Shown here: positions 30,699-55,514 of the stretch, piece after piece
Layout: each line of letters starts with the position of its first letter
Position numbering within the stretch: the stretch's first letter is position 1
Source: Halostagnicola kamekurae
Lineage (GTDB): Archaea > Halobacteriota > Halobacteria > Halobacteriales > Natrialbaceae
DNA length: 64,000 bases
Reading direction: 5' to 3'
Assembly: GCF_900116205.1 (NCBI RefSeq)
Contig: NZ_FOZS01000001.1
Location: 1,426,001 to 1,490,000, forward strand
Program-made: the position numbers and the translations under genes
The notes under the pieces: model-generated
What the model was told of the DNA's origin: nothing
The model's input: only the letters and a program-made list of their open reading frames with translations
Database searches by the model: none

Positions 30699-32578
30699 CT
30701 AGCCGCTGAATTCGGGCCCAGCGGCAAAACGATTTGTGTCCGTGATGAGGTGCCAGTGCTACCAGAAAGAACTAACATTCAATATAGCGTCATGAGATTT
30801 ATTTGTCCGGCAGCAACCACCAGCCACATACTACTAAACATCATTTTATATTGATGTTTTCTGGATGGACAGCAAACGCGTACGATAGAGCAACTGCTAG
30901 ACGACCACGACTCTTTGTGGCTGTCCTCTCTGACATAGTCTACTCGTCGATACGAGACCGTCCGATTGAACGTGTGACGGGACGAATCTCAGGCACGTTC
31001 ACACAGCCGATCGGGGCACAGAGCTATGGGCACCGAACCCTCCTCGAGTGGCTGTCCGTCATCAGTATACGAAAGAGAGAACGATTTGAAACCACTCGAG
31101 TCGATCGAACAGTACTCAGTTTACACAGGCGTCCGACCACTGTAGAAGTCGAGGCAATATCGACTGGTGGCAAGCACAGAACGTCGTAGCGCGGGAAGAT
31201 GCCCGTGAACGCGGCAGTTTCTAACTTGGGCTACGACGCTATCAGGCTGGTTTTGGGACCCACAGCGACGTCACCTCCGTTCAACTGGGTGGATGAAGCG
31301 TCTACGGTGAGATACGGAATTCGATTTTTGAGACGCTGTACGGGTGCGAAAGCGTACACCGGACGGCACTATCGAGTTCAGCACCTCCTCAGCACGTGTT
31401 CGGCTGTTCGATGCTTGTTTCGGTCGATCGTGCTTATCACAGCGGTCGTGAACGCGCGCGGTCAGCCCCGCGGCATCGGCGTGACACAGCGTCCCGTTCG
31501 TACACCGAAGTCTCCTCACGTTCTGGGGTCGGCTGAAGACATCGATTTCCAGCAGCGCTTCGGTTCTGTATCGTGCGTAGCGTATGGCCACCTTCTCTCG
31601 TTGTCATCCTCGATCTGCTTCTTGGCGACTGCAGCTCCGGATGGCTGTCCTGCCGGAGGATCGCTCCGTGTCTCTGAGACGTTATGCGTCCAGCCCAGAT
31701 TGGGCCGTGATATCGGCCAGTACCGAGCAATTCGAGGACTTCGACGACGGCTCGAGCCGACAACTCCATCGAATAGAGACCCACCCCGACACCTCTCTAG
31801 GTGTTTGCGGTGCACTCGTCTTCCCAAACTCCACCATATCCACGTCTACGGTCTCTCAGAGCAGGTCGTCGAGTTGCGTAGGCGCTTCTTGCCACCACTT
31901 ATTCATCCCTCGACTCTCATCTAACCAGTGCCCACTGGACCGGCCACAGGATTGACTGGTGGCGTCTCGAACGCCGTGAGGATCCCACGTACGGACCGTT
32001 CAACGCCGTTGAGCGGTTCGTGTATGCGTTTCCTTCGCCTGTGCGGCCCAAGCAAATATTTGGTTGTGATGGAGGGCGAAATCGTCGAAGAACGGCCCCG
32101 AGAGATTTCGCTGAATACTGCATGCTTGATGAACTACGCGAGGAGATCGATTAGTACCGGGCGGTCGGGTAGTCCCATCGCAGACCAGGTTCGACGGTGG
32201 GACCGATTGTTTCCGCCGGCATTCGCGATCGGGGTGGCCAGTCGACGATCGGCCGTCACTGTTACCGAATCGCGAAACTCTCGTCGGAAACGCCGCATTC
32301 GGCGACGGTTCGTTCGACGTTTTCCCCGAGGAAATACTGCTGCCTACAATACCTATGAAATGTGTTAGCTAGAACAAACGTGTCGGCGGGTCGAAGCGTG
32401 GAGAAGATGATCGTGATCTCGAGGCGAAGATTAGATCTCAACTCCTTGCCCTAGAAGAACTATTTATCTAGAATTGCAGGACCACATATAGCGCCAGTAA
32501 CGCCATAGTGCTCGAGATAAAATCCCTTAGCTCGAAATATGGGATACTTTGAAGGTGCCACAATCGAATGCGTCTCGT
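30699..32578. other. Gene-poor island with transposon remnants
   Basis: About 1.9 kb of lower-GC DNA without a convincing intact gene. It holds the decayed IS6-type transposase at 31376-31784. A stop-free stretch on the plus strand (about 31900-32155) ends RDFAEYCMLDELREEID but has no start and no recognised family; it may be part of another relic. The region stands between the deaminase gene and the DUF5805-recombinase pair. Confidence 0.6.
31376..31784 (-). pseudogene. Decayed IS6-family transposase
   Basis: Three successive minus-strand frames carry pieces of one haloarchaeal IS6-type transposase in the right order. The first has MELSARAVVEVLELLGTGRY (31784 to about 31683). The second, starting at 31692, has WTHNVSETRSDPPAGQPSG and then ERRWPYATHDTE, matching the region around the first catalytic Asp, which is altered. 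The third has LLEIDVFSRP and ends KHDRPKQASNSRTRAEEVLN, matching the usual C-terminal end. The core with the second Asp and the Glu is deleted. At least two frameshifts and an internal deletion make it non-functional. Confidence 0.65.
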
Positions 32579-32971
32579 ATGTCCGAATCCGTCGAGACTA
32601 CTCGGAAATCCGTAAAGACCTACCTTCCCGAGTACCAGAAAGACGAGTGGAGATCCCACGCCGAAGCGCTCGGAATGAGCCAGAGCGAGTTCGTCAGGAC
32701 GATGGTCCAGGCCGGACGAAACGGGTTCGAACCGGCGGACGAGGAACCCGGTTCTGCGAGCGCAGACCCTAGGGGTAACGACCTCGAAAGCAGGGTCCTC
32801 GAGTTACTGTCCACTGACACGTATTCATGGGACGAACTCCTCGAGGCGGTCAGCGACGACATCGAAGCGAGACTCGAGGAAGCGCTCAGCGAACTACAGG
32901 AAGAAAACCGAATCCGCTACAGCGGTCGCCACGGTGGATACACCGTCATCGAGGATACGGATGGCGACTAA
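32579..32971 (+). CDS. DUF5805-type DNA-associated protein
   Basis: A 130-residue protein. The N-terminal half (KSVKTYLPEYQKDEWRSHAE, then LGMSQSEFVRTMVQAGRNGF) looks like a ribbon-helix-helix-type domain. Residues about 75-125 form a winged-helix-like segment (YSWDELLEAVSDDIEARLEE ... IRYSGRHGGYTVIED). It overlaps the recombinase gene by 11 bases (ATGGCGACTAA), so the two are translationally coupled, and a pairing with the recombinase is likely. The family name is from memory. Confidence 0.82.
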   Translation: MSESVETTRKSVKTYLPEYQKDEWRSHAEALGMSQSEFVRTMVQAGRNGFEPADEEPGSASADPRGNDLESRVLELLSTDTYSWDELLEAVSDDIEARLEEALSELQEENRIRYSGRHGGYTVIEDTDGD

Positions 32972-34004
32972 CGCCGACGCGACCGAGGACGGTTCCGACC
33001 CCATCGAGTACTTCCTCGAGGACCAGCGCTATCACGGCAAAAGCGAGCGGACGCTCGCGGCCTACGACCGCGTTCTCCACGAGTTCGAGGCGTACGTCAG
33101 TTCGGAGTTCGAGGCCGTCGAATCGCCCGGCGACGCCGACCGGCGCGAGTGTATGGCCTGGATTCACTCCCTTCGCGGTGCTCGAAAACCCAGTACGATC
33201 GCGACCTACGCCTCGTATCTCAAACGCTTTTACGACTACATGAACAGGGTCGGGGAGTTCGACGAGAACCCGATGGCGCTTGTGATGGAGGAGATGTCCG
33301 AATCCATCGATACGAACCCCACACGCCGCGATATCTCCGTTTCCGAAATGCGGTCGTTCGTCGACTCGATCGGCCATCCGCTCGAGCGCGCGGTGATCGT
33401 CACGCTGCTCAAAACCGGGATGCGCGTGGGCGAACTCTGCAATCTCGATCTTCGTGATCTGCACATCGACGTTTCGCGACTCGAGTACGACCGACAGCCG
33501 CGCGTAGAGCTCGAGCGGCGAGCGGACTCGCTTTTCGTCTCCGCGAGGCCCGCTCGCGGGGCCACCGTCAACGGCGAAGAGCGGACGGCCTCGAACAAGC
33601 GCGAACGCGATACGATCGTTCCCGTCGATGCGGAGCTTCGACGGACCCTCGAGCGGTGGCTCGCGATCCGCCCAGATAGCCGATCGCCGGCGGAACCGCT
33701 CTTTCTCGACACCGGCGAGTCGTGGGGACAGCGACTTACACCAGGGGATATTCGCTATATCGTCGAGAAACACGCTCGAGAGCGGGGCTGGTACCGAACG
33801 GGCGGCGGCGCGACCGAAAACGTGACGCCGCACTACTTCAGACACTTCTTTACGACACACCTCAGGGATCGAACCGGCGACCGCGGCGTCGTGAAGTACC
33901 TCCGCGGAGACGTCGCGAGCGACGTAATCGACACGTACACCCACAACTGGGGCGATCAGGTTCGGATGGTATACGAGTCGAACATCTATACTATTTTCTC
34001 CTAG
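32961..34004 (+). CDS. Tyrosine recombinase (XerC/integrase family)
   Basis: A 347-residue site-specific recombinase. Residues about 14-110 are the SAM-like core-binding domain. The catalytic domain shows the first Arg in LLKTGMRVGELCNLDL, the H-x-x-R box in PHYFRHFFTTHLRD, and the nucleophile Tyr in SDVIDTYTHNWGD. A Lys-containing stretch lies between. All catalytic residues are present, so the enzyme should be active. It follows DUF5805 with overlap. No att-like direct repeat was found around it, and the pairing with DUF5805 looks like a stable chromosomal unit rather than a fresh phage integrase. Confidence 0.9.
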   Translation: MATNADATEDGSDPIEYFLEDQRYHGKSERTLAAYDRVLHEFEAYVSSEFEAVESPGDADRRECMAWIHSLRGARKPSTIATYASYLKRFYDYMNRVGEFDENPMALVMEEMSESIDTNPTRRDISVSEMRSFVDSIGHPLERAVIVTLLKTGMRVGELCNLDLRDLHIDVSRLEYDRQPRVELERRADSLFVSARPARGATVNGEERTASNKRERDTIVPVDAELRRTLERWLAIRPDSRSPAEPLFLDTGESWGQRLTPGDIRYIVEKHARERGWYRTGGGATENVTPHYFRHFFTTHLRDRTGDRGVVKYLRGDVASDVIDTYTHNWGDQVRMVYESNIYTIFS

Positions 34005-34204
34005 ATTTTATATGTAATCAACTCTTAGGTCATAGGAAATTGTAATCGCATTGATGATCTACTGGTTTGAATGGAACACGTATATCGTATTCCGCTATAT
34101 CATATTGTCCGCCCACGATGGGGGAACGTACGACGATTCGACTCGAGATGGAAGTAAGGTCGCGATCTGCGTGAAAGCAGGATTGACAAACGGAGAAGTG
34201 CCAA

Positions 34205-34537
34205 TCACCGCTGTAGCAATCCCAGAATCCGATTCCGAACGTCGTCGGCGGACTCGTACGATTCGTCGTCGACCGGCCGCAGTACCTCCCCGACGGATTT
34301 CGACCCGTTCTGTGCGTCGACCTCACTGTCGCCGTAGGCCTCGAGTATATCGTCGGTGGTCGCCGGATACTCCAACGTCTCAAGTTCGTCGTCGAGTTCG
34401 CCGAGTTGATCAGTGGACCCGGACTCGACTGGCTCGGGTTCGTCGGCGCGGTCGCGCGCTTCCTCGAGTTCTCGCTCTCGCTGTCGGCGCTCTGCGTCGT
34501 CGGCCTTTTTGTCTCGTGCGTTCTTGTCGTCTGCCAT
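34205..34537 (-). CDS. Conserved acidic haloarchaeal protein (DUF5789-like)
   Basis: A 110-residue protein. Residues 1-40 are a highly charged helix (DAERRQRERELEEARDRADE). Residues 47-108 form a folded part with GELDDELETLEYPATTDDIL and a helix DDVRNRILGLLQR. This fits a small haloarchaeal family of unknown role that I recall as DUF5789. It stands alone, with about 200 bases of AT-rich DNA without features between it and the recombinase stop. Confidence 0.75.
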   Translation of the reverse strand: MADDKNARDKKADDAERRQRERELEEARDRADEPEPVESGSTDQLGELDDELETLEYPATTDDILEAYGDSEVDAQNGSKSVGEVLRPVDDESYESADDVRNRILGLLQR

Positions 34538-34651
34538 CCCCTATTGTAGGACGGCGAACGCCATAATGCTGTGTGACCTGGTGGGGGTGAATATATCCCA
34601 AAAGTGAGCGCGTACCGACGGTGTCGTTCGAGTAGCCTGTCGATTTCGCCG

Positions 34652-34885
34652 CTAGTGTGTTGCCGTCAGGACGTCGTCGACGTTGAAGATATCCTCTTGT
34701 AATCCGTTTCCGTCACAGTCGTCGTTCGGACACTCGTAGTGCCACCCGTCGCGCGTCGCCTCGCCCTCCGCGAAGCGCTCGCCACAGACGTGACAGCAGA
34801 GTTGTGATTTCGTACACGAGTCCCGGTGCAACTCGAGGGCAAGTTCAGTCTGGAACGACTGATTGCAGTTACGACAGGTGTGCAT
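34652..34885 (-). CDS. Double zinc-finger small protein
   Basis: A 77-residue protein. Residues 4-24 resemble a C2H2-like finger with the last His replaced by Cys (CRNCNQSFQTELALELHRDSC). Residues 31-58 form a second metal site, CHVCGERF...CPNDDCDG. The tail is acidic. Such proteins are common in haloarchaea; partners and targets are unknown. Confidence 0.8.
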   Translation of the reverse strand: MHTCRNCNQSFQTELALELHRDSCTKSQLCCHVCGERFAEGEATRDGWHYECPNDDCDGNGLQEDIFNVDDVLTATH

Positions 34886-35061
34886 GATTCGTCAGACGAC
34901 AGCATCCGTGAAAACTGCTTGGGTTCTCTGATTCGCGCCTGTCCGCGTCTCGAGGGGTCTATGCGGTATAGCCAGCAGCGGAGCGCACTCGAAAAACGAG
35001 CGAGTGAGAGACGAGAATTGATTCGAGAGACCATTCGAATCGGCCCGCTCGAGCGAGCCGA

Positions 35062-36477
35062 TTACTCGTCTCGACCGAGAATGCCGCGTTCGGTCATTTT
35101 CGCGGGATCGAGCACTTCGTCGGCTTCGTCCTCGGTCAGGTAGTCTTTCTCGAGGGCGACCTCGCGAACGGTCTTGTCCTCTTTGAGCGCTGCTTTCGCC
35201 ACTTCGCTGGCCTTGTCGTAGCCGATGTGGACGTTCAGCGAGGTCGCGAGCGCCATCGACTGGAGAACCGCAGACTCGCAGTGCTCGCGGTTTGCCTCCA
35301 GTTCGTCGACGAATCGGTCGGCGAAGGTCGAACTCGCGTTCGAGATGAGTTCCGCCGACTCGAGGAAGTTGTGCGCGAGGACGGGTTTGTAGAGGTTAAG
35401 GTCGATCTGTCCCTCCGCGGCGGCCGAGGAAATCGCGGCGTCGTTGCCGATGACCTGTTTGTGAACCTGGTTGACTGCCTCCGCGACGACCGGGTTGATC
35501 TTGCCGGGCATGATCGACGAACCCGGTTGATTCTCGGGCTGTTCGATCTCACCGAGTCCGTTCCGTGGACCGGACGCGAGCAGTCGGAGGTCGTTCGCGA
35601 TCTTGTTCAGCGAGCCAGCGACGACCCGAAGCGAGCCGTGGGCCTCGGACATCGCGTCGTGGGCTGCCTGGGCCTCGAAGTGGTCGTCGGCTTCGCGGAA
35701 CTGCACGCCCGTCTCCTTGGTGATGTACTCTGCGGCGCGGCCGGGGAACTCCTCGTGGGTGTTCAGGCCGGTTCCGGTCGCGGTGCCGCCGAGTGCGAGT
35801 TCCGAGAGGTGATCGCGGACCGAATCGACGCGGTCGAGACCCTTCTCGACCTGGGTTCGGTAGCCGCCGAACTCCTGACCGAGCGTGACCGGCGTCGCGT
35901 CCTGCAGGTGGGTTCGCCCGGTCTTGACGACGTCGTCGAACTCGTCTTCCTTTCGCTCGAGGGCCTCGCGGAGTGTATCGAGGGCGGGGATGACGTCCTT
36001 TTCGACCGCCTCGAGGGCGGCGACGTGCATCGCCGTCGGAATCACGTCGTTGCTCGATTGGCCGTAGTTGACGTGATCGTTAGGGTGGACGACTCGGTCG
36101 CCGACCTCCGCGCCCATGATCTCGGCGGCGCGGTTCGCGATGACCTCGTTTGCGTTCATGTTCGAGGAGGTTCCGGACCCGGTCTGGAAGACGTCGACCG
36201 GGAACTGATCGTCGTGTTCGCCGGCGATGACTTCGTCGGCCGCGTCGATGATCGCCGCGGCGATCTCGTCGTCGACCAGGTCGAGGTCCCGGTTGGCCTG
36301 TGCGGCGGCTTTCTTGACGACGCCGAGAGCCCGGACGAAGCGGCGGCCGAACGAAATCCCCGAGATCGGGAAGTTCTGAATCGCCCGCTGGGTCTGAGCG
36401 CCCCAGTATGCGTCTTTCGGAACCTGCATTTGGCCGAGACTGTCCTCCTCGATGCGGAACTCGTCATCGTCTGCCAT
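35062..36477 (-). CDS. fumC: Fumarate hydratase class II
   Basis: A 471-residue enzyme of the aspartase/fumarase superfamily that interconverts fumarate and malate in the citric acid cycle. The signature loop is GSSIMPGKINP, and the active-site segments include QTGSGTSSNMNANEVIANRA, DHVNYGQSSNDVIPTAMH and KTGRTHLQDATP. Class II enzymes are iron-independent tetramers. The start MADDDEFRIEEDSLG at 36477 matches the family; the frame upstream is Arg-rich and spurious. Confidence 0.95.
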   Translation of the reverse strand: MADDDEFRIEEDSLGQMQVPKDAYWGAQTQRAIQNFPISGISFGRRFVRALGVVKKAAAQANRDLDLVDDEIAAAIIDAADEVIAGEHDDQFPVDVFQTGSGTSSNMNANEVIANRAAEIMGAEVGDRVVHPNDHVNYGQSSNDVIPTAMHVAALEAVEKDVIPALDTLREALERKEDEFDDVVKTGRTHLQDATPVTLGQEFGGYRTQVEKGLDRVDSVRDHLSELALGGTATGTGLNTHEEFPGRAAEYITKETGVQFREADDHFEAQAAHDAMSEAHGSLRVVAGSLNKIANDLRLLASGPRNGLGEIEQPENQPGSSIMPGKINPVVAEAVNQVHKQVIGNDAAISSAAAEGQIDLNLYKPVLAHNFLESAELISNASSTFADRFVDELEANREHCESAVLQSMALATSLNVHIGYDKASEVAKAALKEDKTVREVALEKDYLTEDEADEVLDPAKMTERGILGRDE

Positions 36478-36760
36478 ACGCGGAGTGTGGCGGTGAGTCA
36501 GGTAAAAGCCACCGAAAGTACGACGTGAGCGGCGAGACAGGGACGACAAGAAAGGGGTGAAGCGGCCGACAAGAAGGGGACGACGCGGTCGGAAAGAGGT
36601 GCGACGTGATCCGCGAGAAGCGATTTCGACGCAGCCGACGGAAAACCGCGACTCGGGTGTGCGCGTCGAATGACGCTCTCGACGCAGCGTTTTCCTCGCG
36701 AAGTGGTCGGGAGAGACCGGCTCGAAGATAATCAGATCGGTCCAGCGGGTATCGGATCGA

Positions 36761-38461
36761 TCAGGTGAAATCCACGGTGAGCCCGAGCTCGTCGTCACCT
36801 GCGCGTTCACGCAACGACCGCTGGAGCCGTTCTCGGCTCGTTTCGCGTACGTCGCGTGCGTCCTCGAGCGACAGATCGTAGATCGTCGGCGGGGCCAGCG
36901 AGAACGAACTCGAGCTGGCCGTATCGACGACGACCGAAGCGAGTCCGAGCCGCCGCTGGAAAATCGACCGGCGAGTCGAGATCGTCTGGACGCGATAGTA
37001 CGGGATGACGGTGGTTCGCCGACGCCAGAATCCGCGACGGATCACGAGGTGGTCCTCGCCGACGTAGTACTGGATGTTGACGTACCGAAGGTGTGCCGCG
37101 GGCGGAACGGCGACGAAGACGATCGCGGCGAGATACCACTGCTCGAGGGAGGTCACGAGCGTCACGCCGAAGATGGCGGCGACGAAGACGCCGGCGATGA
37201 TCGAGTAGCGCGCGACGTATCGGCGTCGGGCGAGCGTCGGTGGGCTGTGAAACTGGGGCGTTTCGGACCCGGTCAGTCGCTCGGTGAACTCGTAGACGCG
37301 ATCTCGCTGGGCAAGCGGGACGGCCGACTGGCTTCCGGTCCCGCTTTCCGGGCCGTAGCCCGCGGTCTCGATCCACATTCCCGCGTAGTCGATCAGGCGC
37401 TGGAGGGGGTTGTCCGTGACCGTGACCGACTGGATCTTCTCCGAGGGGATCGAACCGCTGTATCGCTGGAGCAATCCCCGTTCGTAGACGAAATCACGAC
37501 CGGCGCGGCTGAGGGTGAAGCCGTAGTACGCGCCGAAGGTGTAGGCGACGCTCACCAGGTACGTGATGATCACACCGTAGGCGAACGACACGAGCGTTAG
37601 AACGCCGTAGTTCCCGATGCTCGCGGTCTCGAGATCCGCTGGACCGCCGATGGGCTGGGAGACCGTCAACAGGTGATCGATGACGGGATCGATCGCGATG
37701 AAGACGAAAAACAAGAGCGCCGCGCCCAGGGCTGGCCGAAACGAGGTAAACGAGTACAACAACAGCTCTCGCGCCTCGAGTTCGAACAGCGACCGAGTTC
37801 GGTCGTCGTGTCGCGTGCGACTAGCAGACTGCGTTCCGACGCCGTGATTCCTCGCGTCGGATTCGTTCGAGACCGAGTTGCGCTCGGCGGCGGTTTCGTC
37901 TGCGGACGCCGAGGTATCACTTCCCGGTCGCTCGGTCACGGCGGCACTCGCGTCGGCCTCGGGATCAGTTTCTCGAGTGCCGTCGTGCTCAGTGCCAGTC
38001 TCAGATCGAGATTCCGTCGCTCGAGCGGTCCGGCGACGGATCTCGCGCTGGAGTCGGTCGGCTTCTTCCTCGGAGACGAAGTTCAGCCTCGCCTCGGTTT
38101 GGCCGCCACCCGCGGTCTCGATGGAGACGACGGCCAGGCCGAGCAGTCGGTGGAGGACGCTGATTCGAACGTCGACGTTCTGGATTCGCCGATAGGGGAT
38201 TTCGCGGGACCGCCGCGAGAAGACCCCGGACGCGACGTCGAACGTCGTGTCGGTGACTTCGTACTCGTAGCGCATGTAGTAAGCGACGCCGTAGATGCCG
38301 CCGAGAACGAACCCGATCGGAGCCGCCGCGATCGTCCACGTGGCCGATCCGAACTCGAGGAACGTCGTTCCCAGCGTGACGAGCGACGTGGCGACGAAGA
38401 GCCCGGCAAGCGCACGCTGGAACCCGTGCGTGACCGCCGCGAGGTGATGGAGTCGATTCAT
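36761..38461 (-). CDS. Membrane protein with repeated PH-like domains (YdbT-type)
   Basis: A 566-residue membrane protein. It has three bacterial PH-like (bPH2) repeats, each marked by a strand and P-Y-x-R-I/V-Q motif: IPYRRIQNVDVRISVLHRLL, IPSEKIQSVTVTDNPLQRLI and IPYYRVQTISTRRSIFQRRL. Pairs of membrane helices stand before each. Residues about 145-220 are a disordered acidic/Ser-rich insert. The family belongs to the YdbS/YdbT pair of Bacillus, which is linked to resistance against antimicrobial compounds; the role here is unknown. Its ATG overlaps the preceding gene by four bases. Confidence 0.88.
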   Translation of the reverse strand: MNRLHHLAAVTHGFQRALAGLFVATSLVTLGTTFLEFGSATWTIAAAPIGFVLGGIYGVAYYMRYEYEVTDTTFDVASGVFSRRSREIPYRRIQNVDVRISVLHRLLGLAVVSIETAGGGQTEARLNFVSEEEADRLQREIRRRTARATESRSETGTEHDGTRETDPEADASAAVTERPGSDTSASADETAAERNSVSNESDARNHGVGTQSASRTRHDDRTRSLFELEARELLLYSFTSFRPALGAALLFFVFIAIDPVIDHLLTVSQPIGGPADLETASIGNYGVLTLVSFAYGVIITYLVSVAYTFGAYYGFTLSRAGRDFVYERGLLQRYSGSIPSEKIQSVTVTDNPLQRLIDYAGMWIETAGYGPESGTGSQSAVPLAQRDRVYEFTERLTGSETPQFHSPPTLARRRYVARYSIIAGVFVAAIFGVTLVTSLEQWYLAAIVFVAVPPAAHLRYVNIQYYVGEDHLVIRRGFWRRRTTVIPYYRVQTISTRRSIFQRRLGLASVVVDTASSSSFSLAPPTIYDLSLEDARDVRETSRERLQRSLRERAGDDELGLTVDFT

Positions 38462-50400: not shown

Positions 50401-51162
50401 CTATCGATCCGAGCGGTCGTCCGATCCCTGCAGGTCGGGCCGCTCGGTCGCCCGTCGAAGCAATCCGAGTAACGTGTTGACTTCTCCTTCCGTCGGGTCC
50501 GCCCTGCCGTACACGCGGCGGATCATCCGCATCGTCTTCTCGCGTTTCTCCTCGGGGTGGTTGAGTTCGGCGAGCAGGTCTCCCCACTGATCGTAGAGTC
50601 GCTCGAGCAGCGGTTCCGGGGCGCGAACGCGCGTTTTGTCTGGGAGTTGCGTGTCGCCGTCTGCGAGCGCGAGCGAGCGGAGTTCGTAGAGCGTGATCGT
50701 CGCCGCCTGTCCGAGGTTGAGCGCGGGATACTCGGCGCTCGCGGGGATCGAACAGATCTCGTCGATTCGGCTCAGCTCCTCGTTCATGAGGCCGACGCGT
50801 TCGCGACCGAAAACGAGGACGGTCGGGGCGTCGACGGTCGGTAATCGCTCGGCGAGTTCCGCGGGCGTCGAGTACGGGAACCGAACGTGGTGTTCGTCGT
50901 CCTCGTTCGTGACGGCCGTACACCCGATGGTGTGGTAGTTCTCCACGAGGTCGTCGAACGAGAGTTCGGTCGCGTCGGGTAAGACGTCGTCTCGAGCGTG
51001 TCCAGCGAACCCGTAGGCTTCGCCGTCCGGATCGAGTTCCGGCGGATCGACCAACAGTAAGTCCTCGAAGCCGAAGTTCTTCATCGCTCGAGCGATGGTG
51101 CCCACGTTCCCCGGTGTCTCAGCGTCGACGACGGCGACGGAAGGCGGATCCCGCGTGTCCAT
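50401..51162 (-). CDS. trmJ: TrmJ-family RNA 2'-O-methyltransferase (SPOUT)
   Basis: A 253-residue SPOUT methylase. The three knot motifs are GNVGTIARAMKNFGFEDLLL, VLVFGRERVGLMNEEL and IPASAEYPALNLGQAATITL. The archaeal TrmJ methylates the ribose of position 32 in tRNA, so tRNA is the likely target. The start MDTRDPPSVAVVDAETPGN at 51162 is natural. The C-terminal about 60 residues form a helical tail. It ends the run of genes before the origin region. Confidence 0.9.
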   Translation of the reverse strand: MDTRDPPSVAVVDAETPGNVGTIARAMKNFGFEDLLLVDPPELDPDGEAYGFAGHARDDVLPDATELSFDDLVENYHTIGCTAVTNEDDEHHVRFPYSTPAELAERLPTVDAPTVLVFGRERVGLMNEELSRIDEICSIPASAEYPALNLGQAATITLYELRSLALADGDTQLPDKTRVRAPEPLLERLYDQWGDLLAELNHPEEKREKTMRMIRRVYGRADPTEGEVNTLLGLLRRATERPDLQGSDDRSDR

Positions 51163-51244: not shown

Positions 51245-51340
51245 CTAGCGGACCTGTTACGACTAACTGTCGTCAACTATCCTCCCTAGACTAGTTTAGC
51301 TAGACTAGCCTAGGTGAACTAGTCTAGTGAACACTACTAG
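51245..51340. repeat. CTAG cluster with inverted repeat
   Basis: Nine CTAG tetramers start at 51245, 51286, 51291, 51300, 51305, 51310, 51319, 51324 and 51337. CTAGACTAG occurs at 51286-51294 and 51300-51308 and its inverse CTAGTCTAG at 51319-51327. CTAG is sparse in the rest of the window. Confidence 0.85.
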
Positions 51341-51539: not shown

Positions 51540-51569
51540 GGGGACACACACCTGCATCGCGTTTGTAAC
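51540..51569 (-). repeat. Origin recognition box-like element, left copy
   Basis: On the minus strand the element reads GTTACAAACGCGATGCAGGT followed by GTGTGTCCCC. It matches the copy at 51691 at 26 of 30 bases in the opposite orientation. Confidence 0.7.
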
Positions 51570-51690
51570 GGTGAATGTGTGTGGGGGTTCTGTTGTGCAA
51601 CACACCTCTGTCGCGGATGTAAATATGTCTATAGAATGAGTTTAAATCGGCAAATCCGGGGATATCTGCTCCCCCTCCCCCACATTTGGC

Positions 51691-51720
51691 GTTACAAACG
51701 CGACGGGGGTGTGTGTCCCC
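51691..51720 (+). repeat. Origin recognition box-like element, right copy
   Basis: GTTACAAACGCGACGGGGGT followed by GTGTGTCCCC, facing away from the AT-rich core like its partner at 51540. The inverted repeat also extends inward through ATGTG and G-runs. Confidence 0.7.
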
Positions 51721-52149: not shown

Positions 52150-53403
52150 ATGTCCTCCAACGATGACCGGGACCCGCTCTTTCGCTACGACGATCCGATC
52201 TTCGCCGACGAGCGTTTGCTCGAGATCACGCATCTTCCGGGACCCGACCGGATCGTCGGGCGAGACGAGCAGATGCAGCGGGTCGCCGACGCACTCAATC
52301 CGGCGGTGTTCGGGAGCGAGCCAAACCACCTGTTTATCTTCGGGAAGACGGGTACCGGGAAGTCGCTCATCTCGCGGTCGGTCACCCAGCGAGTGATTAC
52401 GGAGGCCGAACGCGACGGCGTCACGGTCAAGTACGCCTTCATCGACTGCGGCGAGCAAAACACCGAAGCGTCGGTCGTCAAGACCATCGCTCAGATCATC
52501 AACGAACCCGACAACAGCGGTATCACGGTTCCAGATCGCGGGCTCGGAACCGGGGACTACTACAAGCGACTCTGGCAGACGATCGATCACTGCACCGACG
52601 TAACGATCGTTATCCTCGACGAAATCGACATGCTCGAGGACGACGAGATCCTTCGAAAACTATCCCGGGCCGGCGAAAACCGACGAATTTCGGACGCGGC
52701 GATCGGGATCGTCGGCATCTCGAACAAGATCGACTTTCCGGATCACCTCTCCGAGCGGGTCAAGTCGAGTCTCTCGCGAGACGAACTCGTCTTTTCGCCC
52801 TACGATGCGAACCAGCTGATCGAGATCCTCGAGAAACGCCAGGACGCTTTCCACGACAGCGTGCTCGAGGACGACGTGATTCCGCTGACCTCCGCGCTCG
52901 CGGCACAGGAACACGGCGACGCGCGAAAGGCGATCGACATTCTTCGAAACGCGGGGCGGCTCGCGAAGAAACAGAACGACGCGCGGGTCACCGCCGAAAA
53001 CGTCCGGGAGGCGAAAGAAAAGACCGAAGCGGATCGGTTCAACGAACTGATCGAAGGGTCGCCCCAGCAGGCGAAAGCGATCCTGTACGCGCTGACGGTG
53101 TTGACCCAGAACAGCTCTCAGAAGGAGTTCCCGACGAAGATAATCTACAACCAGTACAAGGAACTGGCGCGACGGCTCGATTTCGACATCCTCTCCGAAC
53201 GGCGCGTTCAGGAAATCCTGCAGGAACAGAACTTCCTCAACGTGATCCAGTCCGAGCGAACCGGCCGCGGCCGCGGTCGCGGCGCGCACGCGAAACACCG
53301 ACTGCTCGAGAACCCGTCGATCGTCGAGAAGGTGCTCCTGCGTGATTCTCGGCTCGCACTACTCGATGAAAACGCGGATACCGAGACGTCCTCCGGGCGG
53401 TAA
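52150..53403 (+). CDS. orc1: Orc1/Cdc6-family replication initiator
   Basis: A 417-residue AAA+ protein that marks and opens the archaeal origin. The Walker A is FIFGKTGTGKSLI, Walker B is VIVILDEIDML, sensor 1 is GIVGISNKIDFP and the box VII Arg is in HLSERVKSSLSRDELVF. The C-terminal winged helix (residues about 300-400) binds DNA; ERTGRGRGRGAHAKHRLLEN is a basic wing. The neighbouring ori-like repeats make it the likely main initiator of this origin. Haloarchaea carry many Orc1 copies; the numbering of this one is not determined. Confidence 0.95.
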   Translation: MSSNDDRDPLFRYDDPIFADERLLEITHLPGPDRIVGRDEQMQRVADALNPAVFGSEPNHLFIFGKTGTGKSLISRSVTQRVITEAERDGVTVKYAFIDCGEQNTEASVVKTIAQIINEPDNSGITVPDRGLGTGDYYKRLWQTIDHCTDVTIVILDEIDMLEDDEILRKLSRAGENRRISDAAIGIVGISNKIDFPDHLSERVKSSLSRDELVFSPYDANQLIEILEKRQDAFHDSVLEDDVIPLTSALAAQEHGDARKAIDILRNAGRLAKKQNDARVTAENVREAKEKTEADRFNELIEGSPQQAKAILYALTVLTQNSSQKEFPTKIIYNQYKELARRLDFDILSERRVQEILQEQNFLNVIQSERTGRGRGRGAHAKHRLLENPSIVEKVLLRDSRLALLDENADTETSSGR

Positions 53404-53478
53404 GTACTCCGAGCGATTCGTCCGGATCGAATCGGCCGGTACCGCGATACCTTTTTGTCTGCCGTCCTCACTGCAGGT

Positions 53479-54381
53479 ATGAACAGCGTCGACGCCGCTG
53501 GAGTGGGTATCGGCGACGAGTACCCGGCTCGGATCATGGGCGTCCTGAACGTCAGCGAGGAATCGCCCTACGATCCGAGCGTGTACGACGATCCGGTCGA
53601 AGCGGCCGCCTACGTCGACGAGGCGTTGATCGACGAGGGAGCCGACATCGTCGATATCGGCCTCGAGTCGGCGAACAAACGGTTCGACGTCCTCACGGCC
53701 GAGGAAGAACTCGAGCGACTCCACGTCGCCCTCGAGACGATCGACAACGTCGCCGGCGACGCAGTGTTTTCGATCGAAACGCGGTACGCGACCGTCGCGG
53801 ACGAGGCGCTCTCTCGAGGGTTCGACATGGTCAACGACATCTGCGGGTTCGCCGATCCGAAGATGCCGACCGTCTGTCGAGAGCACGACGCCGCCGTGGT
53901 CAAGATGGCCAGTCCGCCAGACTTACAGCGGCCGGGTGCCGTCGAGGAAACCGACTGGGCGAGTCGCCGATCCGCGGCGTGGGCGGACTCCGCAGACTAC
54001 GTCGACATGATCTACGAGGCGCTCGAACGGAACGGACTCACGGACAAGACGATCGTCGATCCGGCGTTCGGCGGCTGGAGCGAGGCCAAGACGATCGAAC
54101 ACGATCTGGAGACGTTCCGCCGACTGTCAGAGTTTCGCGCGCTCGAGCGGCCGATGCTGATCTCGATCAACCGGAAGAACTTCCTCGGCGAGATCGCAGG
54201 TCGCGACACTGCGGATCGACTCCCGGCGAGTCTCGCGGCGACCGCGATGGCTATCGAGCGCGGCGCGGATATCGTTCGCACCCACGACGTGGCCGAAACC
54301 CGCGACGCCGCGCGGATCGGATCGGCGTTCGCCGATCGAGCAACTCGAGACGGTAGCGATCTATCGTCCGAGTCGGAGTGA
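53479..54381 (+). CDS. Dihydropteroate synthase-like protein
   Basis: A 300-residue TIM barrel of the pterin-binding family. IMGVLNVSEESPYDPSVYDD stands where dihydropteroate synthase has NVTPDSFSDGG. VDIGLESANKR replaces GGESTRPGA, so the usual signature is changed. FDMVNDICGFADPKM (VND-x-G), TIVDPAFGGWSEAKTIE, LISINRKNFLG (conserved catalytic K/R region) and GADIVRTHDVAE remain. mptE, a pterin pyrophosphokinase, lies next to it, so it probably acts on the same 6-hydroxymethylpterin diphosphate. The second substrate may not be ordinary p-aminobenzoate. Confidence 0.8.
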   Translation: MNSVDAAGVGIGDEYPARIMGVLNVSEESPYDPSVYDDPVEAAAYVDEALIDEGADIVDIGLESANKRFDVLTAEEELERLHVALETIDNVAGDAVFSIETRYATVADEALSRGFDMVNDICGFADPKMPTVCREHDAAVVKMASPPDLQRPGAVEETDWASRRSAAWADSADYVDMIYEALERNGLTDKTIVDPAFGGWSEAKTIEHDLETFRRLSEFRALERPMLISINRKNFLGEIAGRDTADRLPASLAATAMAIERGADIVRTHDVAETRDAARIGSAFADRATRDGSDLSSESE

Positions 54382-54458
54382 CGGATGACCCACGGCCGAT
54401 AGACCAACGGATGATCCGCGGACGATAGACTACCACACGATCCACGGCTGACAGCCCG
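54381..54458 (+). repeat. Imperfect 26-base tandem repeat after the DHPS-like gene
   Basis: Three adjoining units begin at 54381, 54407 and 54433. The first two share ACGGATGA-CC-CGG-CGATAGAC, the third keeps CGATCCACGG and GACAG. The first unit begins on the last base of the gene's stop. Confidence 0.65.
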
Positions 54459-54628
54459 ATGGACGGTCCTCAAGAGACAAACTCACATACGGGCCCACGG
54501 AACCGCGTCGATTCGGATTCTCCTCTCCGCGGATTATAGTTCGTGACGTTCAGGCGCTCTACGATATGAAAACGACGGTGTTTCCTCGAGATATGTCGAC
54601 TCCAAGTCACCATGGCGGTAAGAGAAAG

Positions 54629-54634
54629 CTTATG
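54629..54634 (+). promoter_or_regulatory. Probable TATA box of the mptE leader
   Basis: CTTATG after a purine-rich GAGAAAG, about 25-27 bases before the first base-paired arm at 54656. No TATA-like box stands within 40 bases of the mptE ATG, so transcription of mptE most likely starts here. Confidence 0.45.
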
Positions 54635-54655
54635 CCGGAGGATTCGAAAGAGGGG

Positions 54656-54815
54656 AGTGGACGCCGGGCGGCCTCCCGGGTAGGGGTACTTAGGAGGCGA
54701 CCCCCGGCCCACAACACGGAATTATTGTGGTCCTACGCTCCGAAGTGGCAACTGTACCCAGTGACGGCCGCGGTCCGAACCGATCACACTGGAAACGCTC
54801 GTCACTCAGTGCCCT
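54656..54815 (+). ncRNA. Structured RNA leader (or separate sRNA) before mptE
   Basis: A long hairpin is formed by GTGG (54657-54660), GCCGGG (54663-54668) and GCCTCC (54671-54676) pairing with GGAGGC (54693-54698), CCCGGC (54703-54708) and CCAC (54709-54712). The 3' arm CCACAA (54709-54714) can pair instead with TTGTGG (54725-54730), so two exclusive forms exist. The remaining 85 bases hold no gene. The layout is riboswitch-like; an H/ACA-type RNA is the alternative. The rest of the 54459-54655 gap shows nothing. Confidence 0.45.
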
Positions 54816-55514
54816 ATGGAATACAACGAATTCGAACCCATTTACGAGGCGATTCTGGCAGATTTCGGTTTCGACCGAACGGCCGACGAACGCGCACGGG
54901 AGACGCTCGCGGCGCTAACCGATCCGTTCGACCTCCAAAAAATCGGCGCGGTTCGCGACGCGACGGTCGCGATCGCGGGCGCGGGGCCGTCCCTCGAGTC
55001 GCGGGCGGCTCTCGAGCGCGCGCGAGCGTGCGACGTCGTATTCGGTGCATCGACTGCCGTCGACGTTCTCGAAGCGCACGATATCGCCGTCGACTGTATG
55101 GTGACCGATCTCGATAAGAACCCGGAGACGGTCGTTCGGTTGACCGAGCGCGGGACGCCGGTCGCCGTTCACGCACACGGGGACAATATTCCGGCGGTAC
55201 GCGAGGTCGTTCCGCGGTGTCGACTCGAGTGCGTGCTACCGACGACTCAGGCCGAACCGTCCGGCCACGTTCGCAATTTTGGCGGCTTCACGGACGGGGA
55301 TCGGGCGGCGTTTCTCGCCGATGCGCTCGGCGCTCGCAGGCTCGAGTTCGTCGGCTGGGATTTCGACGATCCGTCCGTCGACCCGATGAAAGCCGAAAAA
55401 CTCCGTTGGGCGAGGGATCTTCTGGCGGTGCTCGAACAGCGACGAAACGAGCGGTTTTCCGTTCTCGACGGCCACCGGGAATCGATCGACGCGAGTGCAG
55501 TCGGTCTCGAGTGA
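54816..55514 (+). CDS. mptE: 6-Hydroxymethyl-7,8-dihydropterin pyrophosphokinase (archaeal MptE type)
   Basis: A 232-residue DUF115-family kinase that transfers diphosphate from ATP to 6-hydroxymethyl-dihydropterin. VAIAGAGPSLESRAALERA, FGASTAVDVLEAHDIAVDCM and VTDLDKNPETVVRL carry the phosphate and metal sites; VHAHGDNIPAVREVVP and NFGGFTDGDRAAFLADALGA follow. It is unrelated to bacterial FolK. With the preceding DHPS-like gene it forms a pterin cluster. Confidence 0.9.
   Translation: MEYNEFEPIYEAILADFGFDRTADERARETLAALTDPFDLQKIGAVRDATVAIAGAGPSLESRAALERARACDVVFGASTAVDVLEAHDIAVDCMVTDLDKNPETVVRLTERGTPVAVHAHGDNIPAVREVVPRCRLECVLPTTQAEPSGHVRNFGGFTDGDRAAFLADALGARRLEFVGWDFDDPSVDPMKAEKLRWARDLLAVLEQRRNERFSVLDGHRESIDASAVGLE

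Follow-up and report, generated by a model that had tools for sequence, protein, structure and literature searches.

A CTAG cluster at the edge of an Orc1/Cdc6 origin of Halostagnicola kamekurae is conserved among Natrialbaceae and probably helps control the start of replication

This locus raises the question of why nine copies of CTAG are packed into 96 bp at the outer edge of a Halostagnicola replication origin of the Orc1/Cdc6 type. The window, by which we mean the whole stretch of 64,000 bp analysed here (positions 1,426,001 to 1,490,000 of contig NZ_FOZS01000001.1, assembly GCF_900116205.1), is otherwise poor in this tetranucleotide. It contains 24 CTAG sites, dinucleotide shuffles lead one to expect 89, and CTAG is thus depleted in it; nine of the 24 nevertheless fall within 0.15% of the sequence. 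The origin region is made up of the following features, given in order along the forward strand.

50401 to 51162, minus strand: gene for a TrmJ/YjtD family RNA methyltransferase, the left neighbour of the origin (TIGR00050, 1.8e-49)
51245 to 51340, no strand: CTAG cluster of nine sites, starting at 51245, 51286, 51291, 51300, 51305, 51310, 51319, 51324 and 51337
51283 to 51330, no strand: dyad within the cluster, with two 24-nt arms that are 83% complementary; this layout is not kept in relatives
51540 to 51587, plus strand: left arm of a long inverted repeat with a G-string, of the haloarchaeal ORB form and putatively an ORB in function; the arms are 81% complementary and are kept between relatives
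51621 to 51660, no strand: AT-rich stretch between the ORB-like arms, read from the sequence; candidate unwinding element
51673 to 51720, minus strand: right arm of the 51540 to 51587 inverted repeat, ORB-like; 81% complementary to the left arm and kept between relatives
52150 to 53403, plus strand: orc1/cdc6 initiator gene (TIGR02928, 2.6e-121)

The cluster lies about 200 bp outside the left ORB-like repeat, on the flank that faces away from orc1. Eight of its sites occupy 55 bp (51286 to 51340), and the first, at 51245, stands 41 bp away from them. Several sites are embedded in longer units: CTAGACTAG is present as a direct pair at 51286 and 51300, 14 bp apart, CTAGCCTAG is found at 51305, and CTAGTCTAG lies in inverted orientation at 51319. 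Genome-wide CTAG frequency was approached by pattern searches rather than by a full count, and one such search of the entire 4.1-Mb genome placed CTAGNCTAG at six positions, four of them in the cluster. The sequence-only reading of this DNA had described nine CTAG in 96 bases, scarcity of the motif elsewhere in the window (where 15 sites lie outside the cluster) and an arrangement in direct and inverted units, and each of these descriptions is borne out, the last by the direct pair, the inverted unit and the dyad. Ten of the 15 other sites lie in a 7-kb interval (30699 to 37821), nine of them between 30699 and 34655, possibly a different or acquired segment. Directly downstream of orc1 (53455 to 55514) are a pterin-binding (dihydropteroate synthase-like) gene and a gene for an MptE-like pterin diphosphokinase. 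The closest named relative of the window Orc1 is that of Halostagnicola sp. A56 (99% identity), a member of the same genus as the window genome.

Chance and AT-richness as sources of the cluster are ruled out by shuffling. At the rate of CTAG found outside the cluster, the Poisson probability of at least nine sites in 96 bp is about 4e-21, and when the 987-bp intergenic region was shuffled 20,000 times with its dinucleotides kept, no 96-bp stretch received more than five. Even when the 96 bp were shuffled alone the maximum was eight, reached in 4 of 20,000 shuffles.

Orthologs of the window initiator occur across the Natrialbaceae. At least three CTAG within 100 bp are found at 82 of 87 orthologous origins in this family, and at least four at 74 of 87; clusters were seen in named genera such as Natrinema, Natronorubrum, Natrialba, Halobiforma, Halopiger and Halovivax. 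The suspicion that relatives' origins might lack the cluster, which would have told against a function there, is thus not borne out. These clusters are centred about 730 bp before orc1. Two or fewer CTAG per 100 bp are present at five Natrialbaceae origins (G081, G084, G090, G122 and G034), and the methylase discussed below is present in at least three of these five genomes (G081, G084 and G122). The homologous origin in Halorussus, Halogranum and Haloprofundus has three or fewer CTAG. When the 136 tetramers were ranked by their clustering at the Natrialbaceae origins, CTAG came second, with 5.3 observed versus 1.35 in shuffles; ACTA, ranked first, and TAGA, ranked third, both overlap CTAG as its flanks, and in 85% of cases a cluster CTAG is flanked by A or T. 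When related origins are aligned in pairs, 78% of the cluster CTAG prove intact versus 22% of neighbouring tetramers, the former value being inflated because aligners match repeats. Put in terms that need no alignment, and at the level of sequence, the number of CTAG is kept while their layout and surroundings turn over.

These comparisons bear on the idea that the cluster is a by-product of composition, either because the avoidance of CTAG is weaker in AT-rich origin DNA between genes or because the region is merely one that melts easily. The cluster is indeed less GC-rich than the window (46% versus 63%). However, shuffles that keep dinucleotide content do not approach the observed count, TATA and TTAA show no CTAG-like enrichment at these origins, and the oriC1 origins of methylase-free genomes (below) are AT-rich too, yet carry 0.95 CTAG per kb between their ORBs versus 5.74 per kb in genomes with the enzyme. 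We therefore consider a compositional origin very improbable.

Dense CTAG also marks Orc1 origins when whole genomes are searched. In eight Natrialbaceae genomes, together about 32 Mb, there are 13 places where three CTAG fall within roughly 30 bp. Of these, 8 are at Orc1 origins, in 7 of the 8 genomes; for G033 and G079 this placement assumes a circular chromosome, since orc1 begins the contig and the cluster lies at its opposite end. The places away from Orc1 origins (G000:C4:242779, G018:C5:70953, G017:C1:2951479, G033:C1:1314810 and G079:C1:92503) could be other origins or promoters.

A second origin of the Halostagnicola genome, oriC1, carries a cluster as well. It is unrelated to the window origin, its initiator is the universal haloarchaeal Orc1, and its neighbour genes are different; six CTAG lie there in 86 bp between two ORBs (L122:2344-2429, which is G000:C1:169462-169547). 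Among the oriC1 clusters of other genomes that have at least four CTAG and for which both ORBs were found, 17 of 19 likewise lie between the ORBs. According to the portions of the Haloarcula hispanica study drawn on here (PMC3936714), the minimal oriC1 of that organism is an AT-rich interval flanked by two ORBs. The oriC1 Orc1 of Halostagnicola (L116:1465-3600) is 711 aa long, and its ATPase domain is split by a long acidic insertion of about 250 aa, rich in serine and variable in length between relatives. CTAG spacing shows an excess of 5 to 6 bp at window-type origins and of 9 to 13 bp at oriC1; we considered a fixed spacing or helical phasing of the sites, but the excesses vary by genus and so provide only a lead.

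The position of the clusters at the two origin types also helps to judge whether they instead act on transcription, as a switch of orc1 or of a neighbouring gene that responds to methylation and would affect replication only indirectly. The window cluster is 83 to 178 bp ahead of the trmJ start codon, and in Haloferax lucertense the regions upstream of genes are enriched in CTAG (PMC11001535). On the other hand, the clusters at orthologous origins are mostly 600 to 1,100 bp from orc1, remote from its promoter, their distance to trmJ is variable (mostly 110 to 520 bp), and at oriC1 the cluster lies between ORBs and beside different genes. A transcription switch is, in our estimation, improbable. 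An operator for trmJ in particular is unlikely because the oriC1 arrays are flanked by other genes.

If CTAG methylation matters at these origins, the cell should encode an enzyme for it. A gene for a 349-aa N6_N4-type methylase is present at G000:C2:1149205-1150251 (PF01555, 4.2e-35), so the possibility that this genome has no CTAG methylase can be set aside. The protein contains TSPPY and DPFWGTG motifs. Across 93% of its length it shares 50% identity with the plasmid pFZ1 methylase, whose neighbour there is an MjaI-family restriction enzyme; we take this plasmid methylase to be the CTAG-specific M.MthZI. In domain, TSPPY motif and homology it agrees with the N4-cytosine CTAG methylase family (cHG U / HG1), and we regard it as a predicted CTAG methylase whose specificity is assigned by homology. 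Within some 1.3 kb of it we recognised no gene for a restriction enzyme. A match to the methylase was found in 334 of 391 Halobacteria genomes, and the relative Natrinema pallidum has m4C at CTAG (PMC12160562).

Because the window initiator type is centred on Natrialbaceae, we used the universal oriC1 Orc1 as the query for families beyond it, and scored oriC1 in 140 genomes, 82 with the enzyme, 56 without it and two with weak matches that were set apart. Clusters of at least four CTAG are present at oriC1 in 21 of the 82 genomes with the enzyme and in none of the 56 without it (Fisher P 6e-6, uncorrected for relatedness). GATC was not found to substitute for CTAG at enzyme-free oriC1 (3.43 observed versus 3.04 in shuffles). 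The association between enzyme and cluster is partly phylogenetic and rests largely on one family, f4, since nearly all enzyme losses are in f4 and this family has no clusters of at least four CTAG even with the enzyme (0 of 35, and none among the 90 scored f4 genomes either way). Judging by where the enzyme has been reported to occur (PMC10609329), we take f4 to be Haloferacaceae and genus g33 to be Halorubrum. A count of three CTAG is reached in 4 of 35 f4 genomes with the enzyme versus 0 of 55 without it (P 0.02). The single enzyme-free genome outside f4 (G380, of genus g69, 90% complete) has no CTAG in 1,700 bp, and two g69 congeners with the enzyme have 5 CTAG per 100 bp. Given the absence of clusters from all enzyme-free genomes and from f4 genomes that have the enzyme, a cluster seems to require the enzyme, but the enzyme does not seem to suffice for one.

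This insufficiency would be expected if CTAG, in the form WCTAGW, were bound by an origin protein that recognises the sequence as such, for replication or segregation, methylation being incidental. The prevalence of A or T at the flanks and the spacing excesses at both origin types also hint at something beyond the tetramer alone. Such a protein would not, however, explain why clusters are missing from every enzyme-free genome, including the one outside f4, and the difference in spacing between genera does not favour it either. We think a reader of the bare sequence unlikely, if less so than a transcription switch.

A link between CTAG and haloarchaeal replication has been proposed before, and the hypothesis considered here is a rediscovery of it. 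Blow et al. 2016 (PMC4752239, Fig. 6D) reported haloarchaeal CTAG clusters upstream of orc1/cdc6 that correlate with an orphan methylase, and suggested that they act in replication (the motif appears as CATG in the main text of that paper and as CTAG in the figure legend); these clusters are restated in a survey from 2023 (PMC10609329). The cluster described here, in non-coding DNA upstream of orc1/cdc6 and beyond chance, belongs with theirs: motif, place, enzyme family and proposed role are the same, clusters stand at several orc1 genes of one genome, and nothing essential differs. New with respect to that work are the scale (87 + 140 origins), the location of oriC1 clusters between ORBs, the conservation specific to CTAG, and the clusterless oriC1 of f4, presumably the family of the published knockout discussed below.

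Our best explanation, which we hold with slightly better than even confidence, is that CTAG methylation acts through the cluster, which would serve the Orc1 origin as a control array in cis. It probably has a part in controlling the start of copying, and a role in its timing is our inference. The orphan N4-cytosine methylase would write m4C on both strands of each CTAG, and passage of a replication fork would leave the array hemimethylated until the methylase returned. A tight array of 3 to 11 sites beside the initiator-binding boxes, or between them at oriC1, could make the origin sensitive to this transient state, and most likely the array would recruit or exclude a protein in such a way that an immediate new round is blocked. 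The more specific reading, in which a reader of hemimethylated DNA delays re-initiation, is tentative. We would likewise offer only as a possibility, and not as the expected outcome, that origins of two types on one chromosome are controlled by m4C hemimethylation through a reader unrelated to SeqA.

The proposed array resembles the Dam/GATC system of enterobacterial oriC, which is read by SeqA, in that an orphan methylase and a palindromic tetramer are combined with clustering of the methylation motif at the origin. It differs in that the modification would be m4C rather than m6A, the origin is of the Orc1 type, and CTAG is rare elsewhere in the genome, whereas GATC is common in E. coli. We know of no SeqA-like reader of CTAG. 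Cis elements that lie beside or between ORBs and tune initiation have precedent in Haloarcula hispanica; the elements described in the portions of that study drawn on here are a G-rich inverted repeat at oriC1 and an ORB-rich region at oriC2, not CTAG (PMC3936714).

Several observations weigh against control through methylation. When three genes including HVO_0794 were deleted from Haloferax volcanii, CTAG methylation was lost and growth was unimpaired (Ouellette et al. 2018, PMC5867850); low-CTAG origins occur in Natrialbaceae that have the enzyme, and the f4 genomes with the enzyme are clusterless. In Haloferax volcanii CTAG density is raised at oriC2 only (PMC5867850), and since f4 oriC1 origins have no clusters of at least four sites, this knockout says little about clustered origins such as those described here. 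Natrinema sp. J7, a member of the Natrialbaceae, is transformable (PMC5350488). The proposal of the sequence-only reading that CTAG methylation marks replication timing thus gains from the conserved cluster, the methylase gene and the association of enzyme with oriC1 clusters, but f4 shows that a cluster cannot be predicted from the enzyme alone.

Fullmer et al. 2019 called the function of this methylation open, and the literature still treats it so. If origins of two types on one chromosome are indeed controlled by m4C hemimethylation through a reader unrelated to SeqA, archaea would have evolved a methylation-based control of replication separately from those of bacteria.
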